Assembly: GCA_030053935.1 (NCBI GenBank)
Contig: JASGCU010000007.1
Coordinates: forward strand, 7,009-39,991
Direction of reading: 5' to 3'
Length of the DNA: 32,983 nucleotides
Source: Chitinophagaceae bacterium
Lineage (GTDB): Bacteria > Bacteroidota > Bacteroidia > Cytophagales > JASGCU01
Of this stretch, positions 22,236 through 30,903 are shown piece after piece (within the stretch, counting starts at the first letter, position 1; each line of letters begins with the position of its first letter). The notes beneath the pieces are model-generated. The model did no database searches, was not told the origin of the DNA, and saw nothing but the letters and a program-made list of their open reading frames with translations. The position numbers and the translations under genes are program-made.

Positions 22236-25200
22236 TTACTCTTTTATTATCTTCTCTGCTTTCAATACCTCCCCTTTTTCTCCATAGAGTATAATAATAT
22301 ATTCTCCTTTGGATAAAGTTTTCAAATCTACTCTCAAGCCTAATTCATAATTCCTAATTCTTAATTCATAACTCTTTCCCGTAATATCATATATTTTCAC
22401 AGATGCAACCTTTTGTGTCTTATCATACTGAATGGTTATATAATCATTGGCAGGATTAGGATAGATGCGGATAGCAGAGTTTCCTTTTTCTATGGGAGTG
22501 AGAGGATGCATAGATGGAGTAGTAGAAACTACTACTGTTACCGTTTGCTGAGCGGTAGCGGCATTATATTCTGTATTTTCTACTTGATTAGCTGTAATAG
22601 TAGCAGTTCCAATTGCTTTTGCTGTAGCAGTAGTTCCTCTGATACTTACTTTATTCGTATCCGATGAAGTAAATATTATTGGTACAGGACTATTAGAGGT
22701 AACAATAAGAGTATACTTTTGCCCTATGCTGAGATTAGGAATAGCAGTGAAAGTAAGAGAGGGTATGAGTTTAGTAGAATTTATTACTGTTACATTTTGA
22801 GTAGCGGTAGCAGGATTAAAATTTTCATTTCCTTCTTGCGTGGCAGTAATAGTTACACTTCCTACAGCTTTTGCTGTTAGCGTATTGCCATTCACTGATG
22901 CTATAGTTACATCGGAGCTTCTATAACTTACCATTAAACTACTGCTGGAACTGGCGTTCAGAACTAAAGTTTGTCCTATGGTGGGATTTGATACATTTCC
23001 AAACGTGATAGTTTGGTTTAATTTAGAAATGGTCAATGATCTGGTAATAGGAATGGCTTCTTCATAATTATTATTTCCTGACTGTATAGCAGTAATATTT
23101 ACCGTACCTATACCACGTATAGTTGCAGTATTTCTATTAATACTTACCATCGTATTGGAAGGGACGTAAGATAATTCTAATCTCGAACTTGCAGAAGCAT
23201 TTAAAACAAATGTATTTCCAATAGGAGCATATTGAGGAGAAAGAGCGGGGAAAGAAATAGTTTGAGTTACTTTTATCACCTCTAGTTTTCTGATTACTTC
23301 TGTTGTTTCTATATATGTCGTATCTGCACTTCCATTAGGAGCATTTACAAAAGCACTTATATGTACTATTCCTGCACTTTTTATGGTTACGGTATTTACG
23401 TTGATGGTTGCTATTGAGGGGTTAGAGCTTACAAACCTTATGGGCATAGTAGTGTTAGCAGTAGCACTGATAATAAAGTATGTATCCGTTATTATTTTTT
23501 GTGCGGGTATGGTAAAAGTAATGGTTTGTGGTTTTAATCCTTTAAACCTGCCGTTATTTACGATAAAAGCTCCTGCTTGAGAGTATGATCCTCCTGCGAG
23601 AACGCCATCTATTGCCTGAACTCCCCAATAATATCGTCCATTTGGAAGGTTTGGGAGATCTATATTATAAGAAGTTCCTTGTATAATCCCTGGCTCTGAA
23701 ATTTTCCTCGTGCCGTTATTATTTTCTGTAAAAGATAAAGATGCTTTTATACTATCTCTATTGGTTCTTGTTCCTACATACATATTATAAGAGAGACCCA
23801 TTGTTTCAGTTTCTTGGTCGATTGAGGCACTCCAAGAAAAAAAAGCTTTGCTGTTAACAAAACTTACCTGAGGATTGGTAGGAGGAGTGGGAATTGTGTT
23901 TCTTGATACCACAGCGGTTGTATTTACTCTCGAACTTGCAGAACCTGTGTCTTGACTATAAACATATAACTTAGTGTTATATTCAGAACCCGATAATATT
24001 ATATCTAATGTTCCATTATTATCATAATCCCCAAAGCTTGCATCTACTCCATATAAGAATAATAATTTTTTTTCATCATTTACACTGCTACCAAGATAAG
24101 AGGAAGTTACTTCTGAAAACCCTGTGCCAGAGTTATTTTTATATAATTTCATTTGTGAACTATAAAAATAACTTTTATTAGGTGTAGGTGCTACTGTTCC
24201 AAAAGAGAATATATCTAAAAATCCATCATTATTGTAATCTCTAAAAAAACTCTGTGTTAAATATACACTGTCTGTGATTAATTTTTGATCTCCATTATCA
24301 TAAGCATGTATTCGTTTAGTATTAAACAGGTTTGGGACTTCGGAAAAACGAGAAGAATCATTCCTGTATAGTTTAGATATTGCTCTGTTACAACTGTTCG
24401 TCGTTTCTTCAATACATCCCGAAGTAAATATATCTACATCACCGTCATTGTCATAATCTCCAAAACTTGAAGAACCCGAAGTTATGCCGATAATATTATT
24501 GCTATTTGCAGTGTCCAGTAAAAAACCTGTTCCGTTATTTTTATAAAAAAATGATTTGCCTGCTAATGTGACATCGTCATTCCCAATATCTTGTGTACTC
24601 GCAATCCCTTGTATAATAATATCTGAATTCCCATCATTATTATAATCTACGACCATGATATTAGAACCTAATGTATTCTCAAAAGTAGTATCCGCTACAG
24701 TAAAACTGGTTCCATTATTATTTTTATAAAGAATAGAACGTGCTGCGATAAAACTATAGAAGATTCTTGGGTCTCTGCTGTCAGTGGTACCCGTTATAAA
24801 TATATCCATAAAACCATCATTATTATAATCTAAAACAGCAGATGATGGAATGGATAGACCTTGAAATGCAAAATTACTTCCCGTGAGTTCTCTAAAAGAA
24901 TAGTTAGAGGAATCATTTTCATATAATCTTGCTACCATTGTTCCATTATGATTTCCTATTACAAACAGATCTAAATCCCTATCATTATCATAATCCAGAA
25001 ATTTAGCAGAAGGCGTGGTTGTAAGACCTATAATAGAGGATACAGTATCTTTTACAAATTCTCCATTCTTATTCTGAAATAAGATAGAATTACCGTATCC
25101 TGTTACAAATAAATCTACAAAGCCATCATTATTATAGTCCCCAAAAGTAGAACTAAACGTTTTCTTATCGGGAGACAAACTTGCCGATATATTTAATGGA

Positions 25201-25292
25201 ATCTGTTTCGATAAGCTATAATCCCCCTGTGCTAGCACAAAATGAATGCATAACAGCAAAAATAACATACTTATACTGAGATGTTTTAGCAT
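22236..25292 (-). CDS. FG-GAP repeat surface protein with T9SS sorting domain
   Basis: Large secreted or surface-attached protein exported by the type IX system. From the ATG at 25290-25292 it begins MLKHLSISMLFLLLCIHFVL, a standard signal peptide. The frame continues upstream to 25388, but those codons would add a second hydrophobic stretch. Order of parts: seven FG-GAP/VCBS-like repeats with the calcium-loop pattern DYNNDGFVDLF; a fibronectin-III-like domain; four Big-2-like repeats of about 80 aa, each with an ATI/VSI...TVTI strand pair; and a type A sorting domain starting IRIYPNPANDYI. The sorting domain contains a short heptamer-encoded peptide (22341-22375). Likely roles are adhesion or matrix binding; the ligand is unknown. 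The 94-bp repeats flank the gene on both sides. Confidence 0.88.
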   Translation of the reverse strand: MLKHLSISMLFLLLCIHFVLAQGDYSLSKQIPLNISASLSPDKKTFSSTFGDYNNDGFVDLFVTGYGNSILFQNKNGEFVKDTVSSIIGLTTTPSAKFLDYDNDRDLDLFVIGNHNGTMVARLYENDSSNYSFRELTGSNFAFQGLSIPSSAVLDYNNDGFMDIFITGTTDSRDPRIFYSFIAARSILYKNNNGTSFTVADTTFENTLGSNIMVVDYNNDGNSDIIIQGIASTQDIGNDDVTLAGKSFFYKNNGTGFLLDTANSNNIIGITSGSSSFGDYDNDGDVDIFTSGCIEETTNSCNRAISKLYRNDSSRFSEVPNLFNTKRIHAYDNGDQKLITDSVYLTQSFFRDYNNDGFLDIFSFGTVAPTPNKSYFYSSQMKLYKNNSGTGFSEVTSSYLGSSVNDEKKLLFLYGVDASFGDYDNNGTLDIILSGSEYNTKLYVYSQDTGSASSRVNTTAVVSRNTIPTPPTNPQVSFVNSKAFFSWSASIDQETETMGLSYNMYVGTRTNRDSIKASLSFTENNNGTRKISEPGIIQGTSYNIDLPNLPNGRYYWGVQAIDGVLAGGSYSQAGAFIVNNGRFKGLKPQTITFTIPAQKIITDTYFIISATANTTMPIRFVSSNPSIATINVNTVTIKSAGIVHISAFVNAPNGSADTTYIETTEVIRKLEVIKVTQTISFPALSPQYAPIGNTFVLNASASSRLELSYVPSNTMVSINRNTATIRGIGTVNITAIQSGNNNYEEAIPITRSLTISKLNQTITFGNVSNPTIGQTLVLNASSSSSLMVSYRSSDVTIASVNGNTLTAKAVGSVTITATQEGNENFNPATATQNVTVINSTKLIPSLTFTAIPNLSIGQKYTLIVTSNSPVPIIFTSSDTNKVSIRGTTATAKAIGTATITANQVENTEYNAATAQQTVTVVVSTTPSMHPLTPIEKGNSAIRIYPNPANDYITIQYDKTQKVASVKIYDITGKSYELRIRNYELGLRVDLKTLSKGEYIIILYGEKGEVLKAEKIIKE
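22341..22375 (-). repeat. 7-bp tandem repeat inside the T9SS sorting domain
   Basis: Five units of TAATTCN on the + strand (the last is TAACTCT), with a 7-bp period. On the coding strand they give two 7-aa units, YELRIRN and YELGLRV. They lie between the strand ending YDITGK and the strand VDLKTLSKGEYI of the sorting domain, where the family normally has a short loop. Confidence 0.85.
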
Positions 25293-25789
25293 CAAATAAG
25301 TATAAGATGAAATCCCCCTCATGAAAAATAATATATACTTACTCAATAAGTACATACTTACTAACTTAATATTAATGTATTTAAACATATTACAAAAAAT
25401 TAATTTTTGACTGATTCTAAAAATTATTGTTACTATTTTGAACTTTAGAAAATACCAGAACCCTTTTAGTATTTTAAGATTCGTTTATTAAAAAAATAAT
25501 AAATGTCTTAATTATTTTTGATAAAAAACACAAAAACAGCTATTCCTAAATTAAAAAATATTTTTTAATTTTTTATAAAATAAGGTCACTATTTCGTTTT
25601 TTTGTGTATGTTATTCTTTTTTTTGAGGATGATCCAACCCATGTATTCTGTTTACCAATAAAAAATCAAGAATATAATAACAAATTACAAATTCATGTAT
25701 TATATTTACTTCATTATACGGTAGAATATCTTTAAAGAGAGAAAACCTTATACTGTCATTATTGAATACACGTTAATACAAATATTTTT
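25293..25789. other. Divergent intergenic region between the T9SS gene and ligA
   Basis: A 497-bp gap if the T9SS gene starts at 25292. It holds the alternative T9SS upstream codons (to 25388), a small A-T hairpin (AAAATAC 25449-25455 with GTATTTT 25469-25475), repeat copy B (25517-25612), and a 53-codon open frame on the - strand (25611-25772) without a start codon. No TAnnTTTG promoter box was found for either gene. Confidence 0.5.
25517..25612. repeat. Palindromic dispersed repeat, copy B
   Basis: Same orientation as copy A (22091-22184), with the same perfect 24-bp palindrome at 25548-25571 and the same outer inverted arms. The two copies enclose the T9SS gene as direct repeats about 3.4 kb apart. 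Confidence 0.85.
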
Positions 25790-27844
25790 ATGAACCTATT
25801 AGAAGCCAAAAAAGAAATAGAAATTCTGATACAAACTATCCAGGAGTATAGTTATGCTTATTACCAAGAAGATACATCAAAGGTATCCGATTACGAATTT
25901 GATCAACTCTTATTGAGGTTGCAAGATTTAGAAGAAAAATTTCCCGAATTACGAGACCCCAATTCTCCCACTCAAAGAGTAGGAGGTACTATAACCAAAG
26001 CATTTGAAACGGTATTACACAAGTATCCTATGCTTTCTTTAGGAAATACTTACTCGGAGGCGGAACTTCTTGCTTTTGATACCAGGGTAAGAAAAGGATT
26101 AGAAGATGCTCCTTTTGAATACTTTTGCGAACAAAAATTTGACGGGGTTTCCATTAGTTTAATCTATGAAAAAGGGGTATTAGTCCGTGCTATAACACGT
26201 GGTGATGGGGAAAAAGGAGACAATGTGACCGAAAATGTAAAAACAATTCATACTGTTCCGCTTCGGTTAAAGGATGGAGATGTCCCTGAATATTTTGAGG
26301 TGAGGGGAGAGATATTTTTATCCCGAAAAGTATTTGATATGCTGAATAGAGAAAAAGAAGAAATGGGAGAGCCGCTCCTCTCGAACCCAAGAAATAGTGC
26401 ATCAGGGACTCTAAAATTACAAAATTCAAGCATAGCAGCAAAAAGAAAGTTAGATATATACTGCTATTATCTTTTAGGGGAGAATATCCCTGCAAAAACC
26501 CACGAAGAATGCATACAGTTGCTCAAAAAATGGGGATTTCCTCTCTCTCCTACTTCTCAAAAATGCTCTCATATTGCAGAAGTTATCACTTATATACATG
26601 AGTGGGAAACCAAACGCCATTCTCTCCCTTTGGATACAGACGGAATAGTTTTAAAAATAAATAATTTAGAGCATCAACGCTTATTAGGATTCACCTCCAA
26701 AAGCCCTAAATGGGCTATTTCCTTTAAATATAAAGCTCAAAGTATTACTACTCTCCTAGAAAATATTACTTATCAAGTGGGAAGAACAGGAGCCATAACT
26801 CCTGTTGCAGAACTTAAGCCCGTCTCATTGGCAGGAACTATTGTGAAAAGAGCATCACTTCATAATGCAAATGAAATGCAGAGATTGGATATCCGCATTG
26901 GAGACACGGTCTTTGTAGAAAAAGGAGGAGAAATTATACCTAAAATTACAGGAGTACAATTAGAAAATCGCAAACAAGATTCTCTTCCCATTCAATATAT
27001 AACACATTGTCCCGAATGTAATACTCCATTAGTGAGATACGAAACCGAAGCAAATCACTATTGTCCCAACAGAGAGAAATGCCCGCCACAAATACTCGGC
27101 AGAATGGAGCATTTTATATCTCGAAATGCTATGAATATAGAAAACCTTGGAACAGAAACCATTCGTGGTTTGATAGATAAACATATTATACAATACCCAT
27201 CCGACCTTTATAAGCTCACTTACGAAATGCTGAATGGGTTAGAAATACAAACTGTTTCTGACAAAAAAGGAGGAAATAATATTCGTTCTCTCCGTGAAAA
27301 ATCAGCCGAGAATATTATACATTCTATTCAGAAATCAAAACAAGAACCCTTTGAAAATGTCCTGTTTGCAATAGGAATAAGATATGTAGGAAAAACTACC
27401 GCCGAAAAACTTGCAACCCATTTTCAAAATATAGATGCTCTTATGAATGCATCATATCAAGATCTCATAAGCGCACCCGAAATAGGAGAAAAAATAGCTC
27501 AAAGTATCCAGCATTTTTTCCAAAACCCTCAAAATATTACGTTTATTCATGCTCTTAAAACAGCGGGATTGCATTTTCAAATAAAAGAAAAAGAATCCAA
27601 CTCTCCATCCAACATATTAGAAAATAAAACCTTTGTCATAAGCGGAACATTCAAAAGATGGGAAAGGGAAGAACTCCAAAATATCATAAAACAAAACGGA
27701 GGAAAACTACTCTCCTCTATCTCCAAAAAATTAGATTATCTTGTGGTAGGCGAAAATATGGGACCAGCTAAATTAGAAAAGGCAAAAGAGTTAAATATTA
27801 CCATGATCACAGAGGAAGAATTTCTGACTCTCCTATCCCAATAG
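25790..27844 (+). CDS. ligA: NAD-dependent DNA ligase
   Basis: Seals nicks in replication and repair using NAD+. The adenylation domain has the nucleophile Lys116 in the KFDG motif and the usual SLGNTYSEAEL segment before it. The OB fold carries YQVGRTGAITPVAELKPV. The four-Cys zinc finger is CPECNTPL...HYCPNREKCPP. It is followed by helix-hairpin-helix repeats (FAIGIRYVGKTTAEKLA) and a C-terminal BRCT domain (NKTFVISGTF to EEEFLTLL). The 684 aa are typical. The restriction-modification gene follows after 59 bp but is probably an independent acquisition. Confidence 0.98.
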   Translation: MNLLEAKKEIEILIQTIQEYSYAYYQEDTSKVSDYEFDQLLLRLQDLEEKFPELRDPNSPTQRVGGTITKAFETVLHKYPMLSLGNTYSEAELLAFDTRVRKGLEDAPFEYFCEQKFDGVSISLIYEKGVLVRAITRGDGEKGDNVTENVKTIHTVPLRLKDGDVPEYFEVRGEIFLSRKVFDMLNREKEEMGEPLLSNPRNSASGTLKLQNSSIAAKRKLDIYCYYLLGENIPAKTHEECIQLLKKWGFPLSPTSQKCSHIAEVITYIHEWETKRHSLPLDTDGIVLKINNLEHQRLLGFTSKSPKWAISFKYKAQSITTLLENITYQVGRTGAITPVAELKPVSLAGTIVKRASLHNANEMQRLDIRIGDTVFVEKGGEIIPKITGVQLENRKQDSLPIQYITHCPECNTPLVRYETEANHYCPNREKCPPQILGRMEHFISRNAMNIENLGTETIRGLIDKHIIQYPSDLYKLTYEMLNGLEIQTVSDKKGGNNIRSLREKSAENIIHSIQKSKQEPFENVLFAIGIRYVGKTTAEKLATHFQNIDALMNASYQDLISAPEIGEKIAQSIQHFFQNPQNITFIHALKTAGLHFQIKEKESNSPSNILENKTFVISGTFKRWEREELQNIIKQNGGKLLSSISKKLDYLVVGENMGPAKLEKAKELNITMITEEEFLTLLSQ

Positions 27845-27903
27845 AATGATGTATGACGTACCCAATGATGAACAAAAAATTTATTTACAAAAATTAAAAA
27901 ACT

Positions 27904-30903
27904 ATGTCAATACAAGATATACATAATTACTATAATACAATAAACGAATACAAACGTTTTGGTGGCACAGAGAATGAAAGAAGTATTCGCCGTGCTTTTG
28001 CCAATTTATTAGACAGATATTGCGTACAAAAGAAATTACAATTAGTTGATGAAGTATCACTCAAATATTCTAGAAAACGACCAGACGGAACAGTAAGAAC
28101 TGCCCTGCAACAAGATTGGGGATATTGGGAAAGTAAAGATATGCAAGATAATTTAGACGAAGAGATTAAAAAAAAAATTGAAATTGGTTATCCGACTTTT
28201 AATATTCTATTTGAAAACTCAGAACAAATTGTTTTAATTCAACAAGACAAAGAATTAATGCGGGGAGAAATGAAAAACCCCGAATTTTTGCATCGTATTT
28301 TAACCGCATTTATACAATATGAACGCCCTGAGATAACAGATTTTCGGATTGCTGTTCAAAAATTTAAAGAAGATATTCCGTATATTGTGGAGACGCTCCG
28401 CACCATGATTGCGGAGCAAGAAAAGAACCCCGAATTTAGAATACAACGTGAAAAATTTTGGAATGTATGCCGTGAAAGTATCAATCCCGAAATATCAGCT
28501 TTTGATATTCGAGAAATGATTATTCAACATATTTTAACAGCAGAAATATTTGATACAGTATTTGGCGACAGTCATTTTCACAGAGAAAATAATATTGCAC
28601 GAGAATTAGAAATAGTTGTGAATACTTTTTTCACAGGAGCAGTCCGTCGTGATACACTTGCTACTATTGATAGTTATTACAAAACCATAAAACGGGAAGC
28701 AGGAAATATTGAAAGCTACCACGAAAAACAAAAGTTTCTGAAAGTTGTTTACGAAAATTTCTATAAAGCTTATAATCCCAAAGGAGCAGATAAACTCGGA
28801 GTAATCTATACGCCCAATGAAATTGTTAAATTTATGGTGGAAAGCACTGACTTTTTACTGGAAAAATATTTTGGAAAAAATCTTGCCGATAAAAACGTGC
28901 AAATCCTTGACCCTTGTACAGGTACAGGAACTTTTATAACCGATATTATTGAATATATCCCCGAACAATACTTAAAATATAAATATAAAAACGAAATTCA
29001 CTGCAACGAATTGGCGATTTTGCCCTATTATATTGCAAACCTCAATATTGAATATACCTATCAGCAAAAAATGAAAAAATACGAACCTTATGAGAATATC
29101 GTTTTTGTTGATACCTTAGATAACTTAGGATTTAGCTACGAAGGAAAACAATTGAAAACCAAACTCTATGCTGTAAGTGCCGAAAATTTGGACAGAGTCA
29201 TAAAACAAAACGAGAAAAAAATATCAGTAATTATTGGAAATCCACCATATAATGCTCATCAGCAGAATGAAAATGATAATAATAAAAATAGAACTTACAA
29301 AGAAATAGACAAACGCATAAAAGAAACTTACGTATATTATAGTGCTGCCCAAAAAACAAAAGTATATGATATGTATGCAAGATTTTATCGTTGGGCAACT
29401 GATAGAATAAATGGAAATGGCATTGTGGCTTTTATTACCAACCGTTCTTTTATTGACAGCAGAACGTTTGACGGTTTTCGTAAAAGTATAGCCCAAGAAT
29501 TTGATTATGCATATATTGTGGACTTACACGGAGATATTCGTGCAAACAGCGGACAAGCAAAAGCAAATGTTTTTAATATTATGACAGGTGTGGCAATTGC
29601 TTTTTTCGTACGAAAAGAAAAAGCAGATACAAAATTCATTAAATATTATCCAGTGGATTTCCCAACTGCAAAAGAAAAATTAGAATTTTTAGAAACAACA
29701 TCTTTGCGAACCATTCCATTTGAAAGTATCCAAGCCGATAAAAATAACAACTGGATAAATATTGCTGACACAGATTTTGAAAAACTCATTCCCATAATAG
29801 AAAAGAATAATAAAAATACATTGTTTCGGCTTACTACAAATGGAGTTGCAACAAACAGAGATGAATGGGTTTATGATTTTGATACAAAAAATTTAGAAAA
29901 TAAAATAAAGTTTTTTATTGATATTTATAATAAAGAAGTTGAAAAATTAAAAGATAAAAAAACGCAACATGAAATAAATGATGTATTAGATTATTCTATT
30001 AAGTGGAGTGAAGCATTAAAGAATAATTTATTAAGAAATGAAAAATTAAAATTTCTAAAGAACTCTTTTTCATTGATTGCTTACCGACCATTTGTAAAAA
30101 AACAATACTATTCAGAAAAAAAACTGAGCGACAGATTAACAAACAATCACTACTTAATATTTGGAAAAAGCTTAAAAATAAAAAATAAAATAATTACAAT
30201 AAATCAGTCAAAAAAAGAATTCAATGTTTTAGGATCTGATACATTAGTTGATTTACATTTTAACGGGGATAGTGTTTGCATTCCTTTATACCGCTACGAC
30301 AAAAAAGGAAACCAATTAAAAAACGTAACCGATTGGGGATTAATTCAATTTAAGAATCATTATAATGATAAAACGATTACCAAAGAAGATATATTTTATT
30401 ATACTTACGCAGTTTTTCATAATCCTGAATATGTTAAAAAATACGAACTCAACTTAAAACGAGAATTTCCAAGAGTACCGCTTTACAACGATTTTTGGAA
30501 ATGGAGTAAGTGGGGCAAGGAACTAATGGATTTGCATATTGGTTATGAAAACGTGGAGAGTTATGAGTTAATAGTTAAAAGTGAAGGGTTAAAAGATAAT
30601 CCCAATCCAAAATTAAAAGCTTTACCGGAAAGCGGAGAGATTATTTTAGACGAAAATACAAGTATATCAGGAATTCCAAAATCTGCTTGGGAATATAAAT
30701 TTGGAAATCGTAGTGCATTGCATTGGATAGTAGACCAATACAAAGAAAAAACAATAGATGATAAGACAATTGCAGAAAAGTTTAATACGTATAAATTTAC
30801 CGATTATAAACAAACTGTAATTGATTTAATAAAACGAATTACAACTGTTTCGGTGTGTACAATGGAAATGGTAAATACAATGGGGGCAGAAGAACATTCA
30901 TGA
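27904..30903 (+). CDS. Single-chain ISP-like restriction-modification enzyme (nuclease-methyltransferase)
   Basis: Self-contained defence enzyme of 999 aa. The N-terminal PD-(D/E)XK-like nuclease has Pro60-Asp61 and Glu76-Ser-Lys78 (GYWESKD). A helical region follows. The N6-adenine methyltransferase has the AdoMet motif LDPCTGTGTF at 335-344 and catalytic NPPY at 446-449. The C-terminal part has the ISP-type specificity features YAVFHNPEYVKKY and REFPRVPLYNDFWKW. Classical type ISP enzymes are about 1,570 aa and carry an SF2 helicase between nuclease and methyltransferase. None is seen here, so it may cut like a type IIG enzyme (inference). Residues 885-897 are encoded by a 7-bp tandem repeat. 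No other defence gene is adjacent, and it may be horizontally acquired. Confidence 0.85.
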   Translation: MSIQDIHNYYNTINEYKRFGGTENERSIRRAFANLLDRYCVQKKLQLVDEVSLKYSRKRPDGTVRTALQQDWGYWESKDMQDNLDEEIKKKIEIGYPTFNILFENSEQIVLIQQDKELMRGEMKNPEFLHRILTAFIQYERPEITDFRIAVQKFKEDIPYIVETLRTMIAEQEKNPEFRIQREKFWNVCRESINPEISAFDIREMIIQHILTAEIFDTVFGDSHFHRENNIARELEIVVNTFFTGAVRRDTLATIDSYYKTIKREAGNIESYHEKQKFLKVVYENFYKAYNPKGADKLGVIYTPNEIVKFMVESTDFLLEKYFGKNLADKNVQILDPCTGTGTFITDIIEYIPEQYLKYKYKNEIHCNELAILPYYIANLNIEYTYQQKMKKYEPYENIVFVDTLDNLGFSYEGKQLKTKLYAVSAENLDRVIKQNEKKISVIIGNPPYNAHQQNENDNNKNRTYKEIDKRIKETYVYYSAAQKTKVYDMYARFYRWATDRINGNGIVAFITNRSFIDSRTFDGFRKSIAQEFDYAYIVDLHGDIRANSGQAKANVFNIMTGVAIAFFVRKEKADTKFIKYYPVDFPTAKEKLEFLETTSLRTIPFESIQADKNNNWINIADTDFEKLIPIIEKNNKNTLFRLTTNGVATNRDEWVYDFDTKNLENKIKFFIDIYNKEVEKLKDKKTQHEINDVLDYSIKWSEALKNNLLRNEKLKFLKNSFSLIAYRPFVKKQYYSEKKLSDRLTNNHYLIFGKSLKIKNKIITINQSKKEFNVLGSDTLVDLHFNGDSVCIPLYRYDKKGNQLKNVTDWGLIQFKNHYNDKTITKEDIFYYTYAVFHNPEYVKKYELNLKREFPRVPLYNDFWKWSKWGKELMDLHIGYENVESYELIVKSEGLKDNPNPKLKALPESGEIILDENTSISGIPKSAWEYKFGNRSALHWIVDQYKEKTIDDKTIAEKFNTYKFTDYKQTVIDLIKRITTVSVCTMEMVNTMGAEEHS
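30556..30597 (+). repeat. 7-bp-period tandem repeat inside the restriction enzyme gene
   Basis: Six degenerate units on the pattern NNNNGTT (GAGAGTT, ATGAGTT, AATAGTT, AAAAGTG, AAGGGTT, AAAAGAT). They encode ESYELIVKSEGLKD (885-898), a loop in the specificity region. The first two units are nearly identical in sequence and frame to the heptamers in the T9SS gene. Confidence 0.75.

Follow-up and report, generated by a model that had tools for sequence, protein, structure and literature searches.

Copies of a dispersed heptamer repeat in a T9SS sorting domain and, probably, in the specificity domain of a neighbouring restriction-modification enzyme of a Chitinophagaceae bacterium

The stretch of DNA analysed here (the window; 32,983 nucleotides, contig C7 7009-39991) belongs to a 2.55-Mb assembly of 156 contigs that is 97.7% complete. 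On its reverse strand lies the gene of a 1050-aa T9SS cargo protein (22236..25388), with FG-GAP repeats, a weak Ig-like match and a T9SS type A C-terminal sorting domain (PF18962/TIGR04183; 22242..22466), and on the forward strand the gene of a 999-aa restriction-modification enzyme (27904..30903), which ends in a PF18135 type ISP C-terminal specificity domain (29821..30828). Each of these domains contains a run of heptamers in frame. Array 1 (22340..22374, reverse strand), recognised in the letters and by TRF, consists of five tandem heptamers of the form GARTTAN and is read as SYELRIRNYEL, and array 2 (30558..30599, forward strand) consists of six degenerate heptamers, SYELIVKSEGLKDN. A previous sequence-only reading of this DNA had proposed that the same 7-bp repeat lies in both genes, and that it invades coding regions in its stop-free frame, as Rickettsia palindromic elements do. 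The letters confirm that both arrays begin with Ser-Tyr-Glu-Leu in the same frame, and array 1 is a genuine tandem of five heptamers; in array 2 the repeat is degenerate, with two clean units.

On the coding strand (22374-22340), array 1 is made up of the units GAGTTAT, GAATTAA, GAATTAG, GAATTAT and GAATTAG, and TRF independently calls it at 22341-22371 (period 7, 87% matches). Its score is 62.3; when codons were drawn randomly from the window's genes (counts per 2.1 Mb of coding DNA, both strands), a score of at least 52, which is below that of array 1, was expected 0.002 times. The sorting domain that contains it, at the C-terminus of the protein, is above the curated cut-offs of both models (42.6 bits vs 27 and 35.1 vs 23). 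In a 91-residue AlphaFold2 model (pLDDT 87, from 29 sequences) array 1 is predicted to form mostly a beta-hairpin, with strands at 52-55 and 58-62, and the model of the array 2 region (pLDDT 88, from 16 sequences) gives a coil, a short strand and then a loop, so that the placement of both peptides in surface loops appears approximately right. About 120 bp past the end of the window (C7:40110-40304), close to these two genes, another T9SS gene carries a heptamer array in the sorting domain.

The heptamer is a dispersed repeat with coding and non-coding copies, as had been supposed. Counted over the genome with at most one mismatch, GARTTAYGARTTA has 115 matches vs 34 for the reversed control, and exact matches number 27 vs 1. 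Heptanucleotide short tandem repeats (STRR/LSSR) occur in cyanobacteria and other bacteria. With its genome-dispersed tandem arrays of a 7-nt unit at a frequency above chance, the present heptamer belongs with these repeats, which are the subject of Mrazek's work as cited in PMC4679880.

The unit GAATTAT reads TAATTCA on the opposite strand, and its counterpart in relatives is GAATTAC/TAATTCG. As a 7-nt unit is not divisible by 3, a pure array cycles through every phase whichever frame is read. No sense frame of pure GAATTAC contains a stop, and the reading is NYELRIT; pure GAATTAT runs into TGA in every sense frame, once per 21 nt, and the antisense of pure arrays always meets TAA. The idea of a stop-free frame therefore needs correction for GAATTAT, and to remain open, the coding copies of this genome must have departed from the consensus. 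They escape the stop only because every third unit ends in a base other than T (GAATTAA, GAATTAG).

A wide invasion of coding regions did not hold for this genome either, as most heptamer copies are intergenic and the strong coding arrays mainly share one site. Among the own-genome loci, examined as stretches around repeat matches, nine strong coding arrays were found, all in the GAATTAT sense; eight occupy a single site of the T9SS domain and the ninth is array 2, in the restriction-modification enzyme of the window. The genome has 44 PF18962 matches, and the eight sorting domains with strong arrays, together with a ninth that carries a degenerate one, all have them directly after the 'YD.tG' strand. 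In a tree built without the loop, these nine array-bearing domains fall into one clade, with array-less members interspersed and low support values. The simplest reading is that one ancestral array was copied with the sorting domain and later replaced in some copies. Domain copying would thus explain most coding arrays in this genome, and these, being paralogous, count as few events. The heptamer would have come into an ancestral sorting domain in one or a few events, with the array perhaps kept readable by point mutations wherever a TGA arose, and its further spread would have followed from domain duplication and not from repeated insertion. As a guess, slippage might account for the growth of arrays and recombination between copies for their spread. 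Moreover, the strong heptamer arrays of relatives are almost all non-coding, and because of this the enrichment in sorting domains appears, as far as tested, to be specific to this genome.

Other sequences occupy the same sorting-domain loop in paralogues that lack the peptide. GTAG-ended palindromes of the GTAGAGACG family fill it in two of them that belong to the array-bearing clade (L123/L393, C29:7813; L115/L394, C62:13567), and this family has three non-coding copies (C1:57354, C15:19927 and C3:58795). GGGGATTGGGGATTGG is present in three near-identical members of the clade and is not clearly dispersed in this genome. A search with 0-1 mismatch finds the heptamer GGGGATT nowhere in it but in three sorting domains, nearly identical to each other, and a single further gene, which is no more than suggestive. 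The ends of contigs C94, C95 and C55 hold three short, near-identical sorting-domain ORFs (L118, L120 and L121) whose loop contains a pair of GGGGATT heptamers, and the assembly breaks upstream of them suggest repeated cargo genes. The sequence GTAGGGGCAG of another sorting domain (C6_58431) was also considered as a dispersed repeat and rejected, as it is unique in this genome.

The single clade and the common register of its arrays, together with the confidence of the predicted hairpin, would also suit a history in which NYELxI was selected as a useful hairpin peptide and spread purely by domain duplication, the periodicity of the DNA being incidental. This we hold to be very unlikely, as the DNA repeats every 7 nt, whereas the amino-acid period corresponds to 21 nt, non-coding DNA is rich in the heptamer, and clade members with an unrelated replacement sequence still match the domain. 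Both gene classes, T9SS cargo and restriction-modification, are of types that vary in phase in other bacteria. With a unit length that is no multiple of three, gain or loss of one 7-bp unit would shift the frame and could switch secretion or restriction, as in contingency loci. Nevertheless, the arrays are short and imperfect, so that slippage should be rare, and all sorting-domain arrays are in frame, with no off-phase copy seen among them; phase variation was consequently rejected as the main explanation and we regard it as highly improbable.

The second host gene differs in kind. The restriction-modification enzyme is similar over its full length to PDB 7lo5 (999 vs 1029 aa), which we take to be DrdV. 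DrdV is a type IIG enzyme (PMC10201449). In the 999-aa chain the domain search found an ISP coupler, a methylase and ISP-C alone, and no helicase/translocase domain; because of this absence and of the full-length similarity to 7lo5, the enzyme is, by homology, a putative type IIG/DrdV-like enzyme rather than type ISP.

The units of array 2 (30558-30599) are GAGTTAT, GAGTTAA, TAGTTAA, AAGTGAA, GGGTTAA and AAGATAA, of which the first two alone are clean. Under the random-codon null, 2.1 Mb of coding DNA, both strands counted, would yield 0.005 tracts with its score, 46.8, or a higher one. Synonymous shuffling with the window's own codons, over all window genes, gave scores of at least 46 4 times in 12 replicates, and codon shuffling gave 0, so that peptides and codon bias carry much of a score of this type. 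Array 2 could accordingly be ordinary protein sequence, in which Y-x-L and AT-rich codons look heptameric, and array 1 alone would then belong to the repeat family. In line with this, the Y-x-L core recurs in orthologues with other codons (TACCCTCTA, TATGCCTTG), which in part bears out the observation that had been named beforehand as a sign of ordinary conserved protein sequence. Furthermore, the array has no large inserted length compared with orthologues L298, L299 and L301; the nearest of all, L298, has YPLQEKH at this position and is of nearly equal length. Enzyme orthologues lacking the peptide are similar in length to the one that has it. On the other hand, the loop, which follows 'HxxYE', is hypervariable among orthologues; in L300 this loop contains a strong heptamer array (NYELGIINEELKN, score 60.6), and repeat-like sequences of other kinds stand at this position in five further orthologues. 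Pure coincidence is weakened by the codon null and by L300, and we consider the ordinary-sequence explanation somewhat unlikely. Most likely, array 2 would be a decayed tract of the dispersed heptamer in the hypervariable loop of the specificity domain.

Beyond this genome, a longer coding-compatible pattern of the heptamer is present in 53 of 292 genomes of the same order, with a patchy distribution even within families, and some genera have GAATTAC and others GAATTAT. In the public genome collection, the matches listed include Cyanobacteria, Bacteroidota, Ignavibacteria, Akkermansia and single records of other groups, and among them the GAATTAC form is common in Nostocales records. In the literature searched, neither the letters of GAATTAC arrays nor NYELRI were found. 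The heptamer does supply loop peptides. Conserved proteins of other organisms also contain it in frame: in a UvrC the array coincides with a break in the RNase H domain match, and further in-frame copies occur in a GHMP kinase, between glycosyltransferase domains, in a CCA-adding-type enzyme and in Eco57I-type enzymes. A cyanobacterial enzyme (L203) has the NYEL heptamer in a methylase loop, before the motif 'GFD.V.GNPP'. The array at locus L339 of a relative has about 37 units.

The loop of array 2 also holds palindromes. Enzyme orthologues L309, L315 and L321 contain in-frame palindromes of the CAAGGTTTTNAAAACCTTG family, and orthologue L308 has a different inverted repeat, paired in this loop and present at one other locus of its own genome. 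In the genomes of the three CAAGGTTTTNAAAACCTTG-bearing orthologues, the relatives G060, G080 and G147, this family has between 17-33 places each when one mismatch at most is allowed, and of the 47 copies examined there, 23 fall within long ORFs, where 18 use the QGFxNLx frame. Restriction-modification accounts for seven of the ten host proteins that were checked by family (PF18135 twice, PF07669 twice, N6_Mtase, Methylase_S and N6_N4_Mtase), a proportion in which the enzyme orthologues are themselves ascertained, as the palindrome was first met via the enzyme loop; the remaining three are SpoIIE, alpha-macroglobulin and MeaB/mutase. Genome G080 has two in-frame copies of a 35-bp sequence, identical to each other, one in a T9SS sorting domain (L357) and one in a type-ISP-like specificity domain (L433). 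This pair demonstrates, for a different repeat, the scenario of one dispersed repeat shared in frame by these two gene classes. The palindrome of the CAAGGTTTTNAAAACCTTG family is also located in the methylase loop before 'GFD.V.GNPP' in L435, at the place where L203 has its NYEL heptamer. The dispersed palindrome CCTTACAAGGTTTTGAAAACCTTGTAAGG was seen in frame in mostly restriction-modification genes of G080 and G147, sometimes with 2-3 copies per gene (L425, L432, L433, L435, L445, L447 and L453). Likewise in G080, the sorting domain L383 (C64:4214-4462) has LAPPSGVRGLNTPFGGRG between its first strands, which looks like another in-frame dispersed repeat in a different loop.

Taken together, we favour, with a probability of about 0.68, the reading that the arrays belong to a dispersed heptamer family, with a duplicated T9SS site, a decayed tract in the enzyme, and tolerant loops that take up unrelated repeats in frame. 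The best explanation of the two sites is that the sorting-domain hairpin and the enzyme loop are tolerant positions repeatedly taking up unrelated small repeats, and the tolerance of the loops would be the cause of the repeats' preference for them. In its outcome, this resembles the Rickettsia palindromic elements (RPEs; Ogata 2000; reviewed in PMC2229807 and PMC3733652), since dispersed DNA with an open frame lies in frame at tolerated protein positions and yields loop peptides. The likeness stops short of family membership: RPEs are palindromes of about 105-146 bp with terminal inverted repeats, whereas the heptamers are direct tandem repeats of 35-60 bp (35-42 bp for the arrays of the window) and are not members of the RPE family. 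The CAAGGTTTTNAAAACCTTG and GTAGAGACG palindromes of the same loops are closer to RPE/REP than the heptamers are, and GTAGAGACGTAATGCATTACGTCTCTAC of this genome, which begins with GTAG, is palindromic and has few dispersed copies, two of them in ORFs, resembles the GTAG-tagged REPs (PMC3733652). In this context, a known curiosity, heptamer repeats whose role is unclear, becomes tied to two concrete protein sites. The testable rule we offer is that the same tolerant loops, in secretion tags and in restriction-modification enzymes, are filled again and again by small dispersed repeats; should it hold at scale, repeat families would contribute measurably to the supply of new loop peptides beyond Rickettsia.

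The non-coding copies show an orientation of their own. Of 45 non-coding tracts, 16 read as TAATTCA have an ATG at most 30 bp downstream, against 0 read as GAATTAT (sign test, 3e-5), and within 100 bp the numbers are 21 vs 2; several TAATTCA arrays end 1-2 bp before the ATG. Arrays at about 0-27 bp before the ATG were seen at loci L001, L008, L011, L014, L019, L037, L048, L078, L081 and L096 (contigs C27, C5, C10, C84, C2, C9, C38, C22, C24 and C51), ahead of tilS, trpE-like, znuA-like, fabI, recB-like, ribBA, TANGO2-family, fabD, xseA and polymerase III-type genes; the GAATTAT orientation is absent at these ten start codons. The ten downstream proteins that were checked match their families from residue 1-14 in eight cases, from residue 23 in TilS and from residue 29, after a putative signal, in the ZnuA-like protein, and the starts are credible because the matches begin so near the N-terminus. 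Since stops occur in both orientations of the array, ORF calling alone should not create the orientation bias.

Heptamer direct repeats of TAACTGA are known from Beggiatoaceae, Cyanobacteria and some Bacteroidetes, and were suggested to act in Beggiatoaceae as an element of translation or RNA-level control (MacGregor 2015, PMC4679880). They too are 7-bp tandem repeats, patchy across phyla including Cyanobacteria and Bacteroidetes, mostly intergenic, forward and flush upstream of starts and reverse inside ORFs (PMC4679880). The present heptamer has the same layout, by its start-codon counts and by its strong coding arrays, all in the reverse (GAATTAT) sense, but its unit is TAATTCA/TAATTCG and not TAACTGA, and its in-ORF copies lie inside folded domains, mainly T9SS sorting domains, whereas those of TAACTGA are mostly near protein ends (PMC4679880).

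From the positions of the arrays, the repeat might be primarily a functional 5'-leader element of translation or RNA-level control, with the reverse coding copies as side products. The orientation count, the shared layout and the ordinary housekeeping nature of the host genes with credible N-termini (tilS, fabI, fabD, xseA and ribBA among others) would agree with such a role, but only about 20 genes are concerned, and the bias may be a by-product of array formation at gene edges, as the arrays of relatives also adjoin stop codons in a fixed orientation, opposite in sense and often as inverted pairs. Across all phyla the gene-edge orientation bias is weak, and the rule is limited to this order. 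A primary leader role seems unlikely, and it is compatible with the preferred reading of a dispersed family in tolerant loops, not exclusive of it. Also unlikely is a wider proposal, in which certain protein loops, above all those of T9SS sorting domains and of the specificity or methylase regions of restriction-modification enzymes, would be recurrent in-frame landing sites of many unrelated small repeats in Bacteroidota and Cyanobacteria, the turnover of repeats would steadily vary the loops and perhaps DNA specificity, and the start-codon TAATTCA copies would form a regulon under post-transcriptional control, convergent with the one proposed for TAACTGA. In any case, start-flush TAATTCA is a second heptamer with the layout of TAACTGA, and a common cause is testable. 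At loci L352, L353, L355 and L356 of relatives, facing inverted heptamer pairs fill the intergenic spacer, with one edge flush with stop codons.
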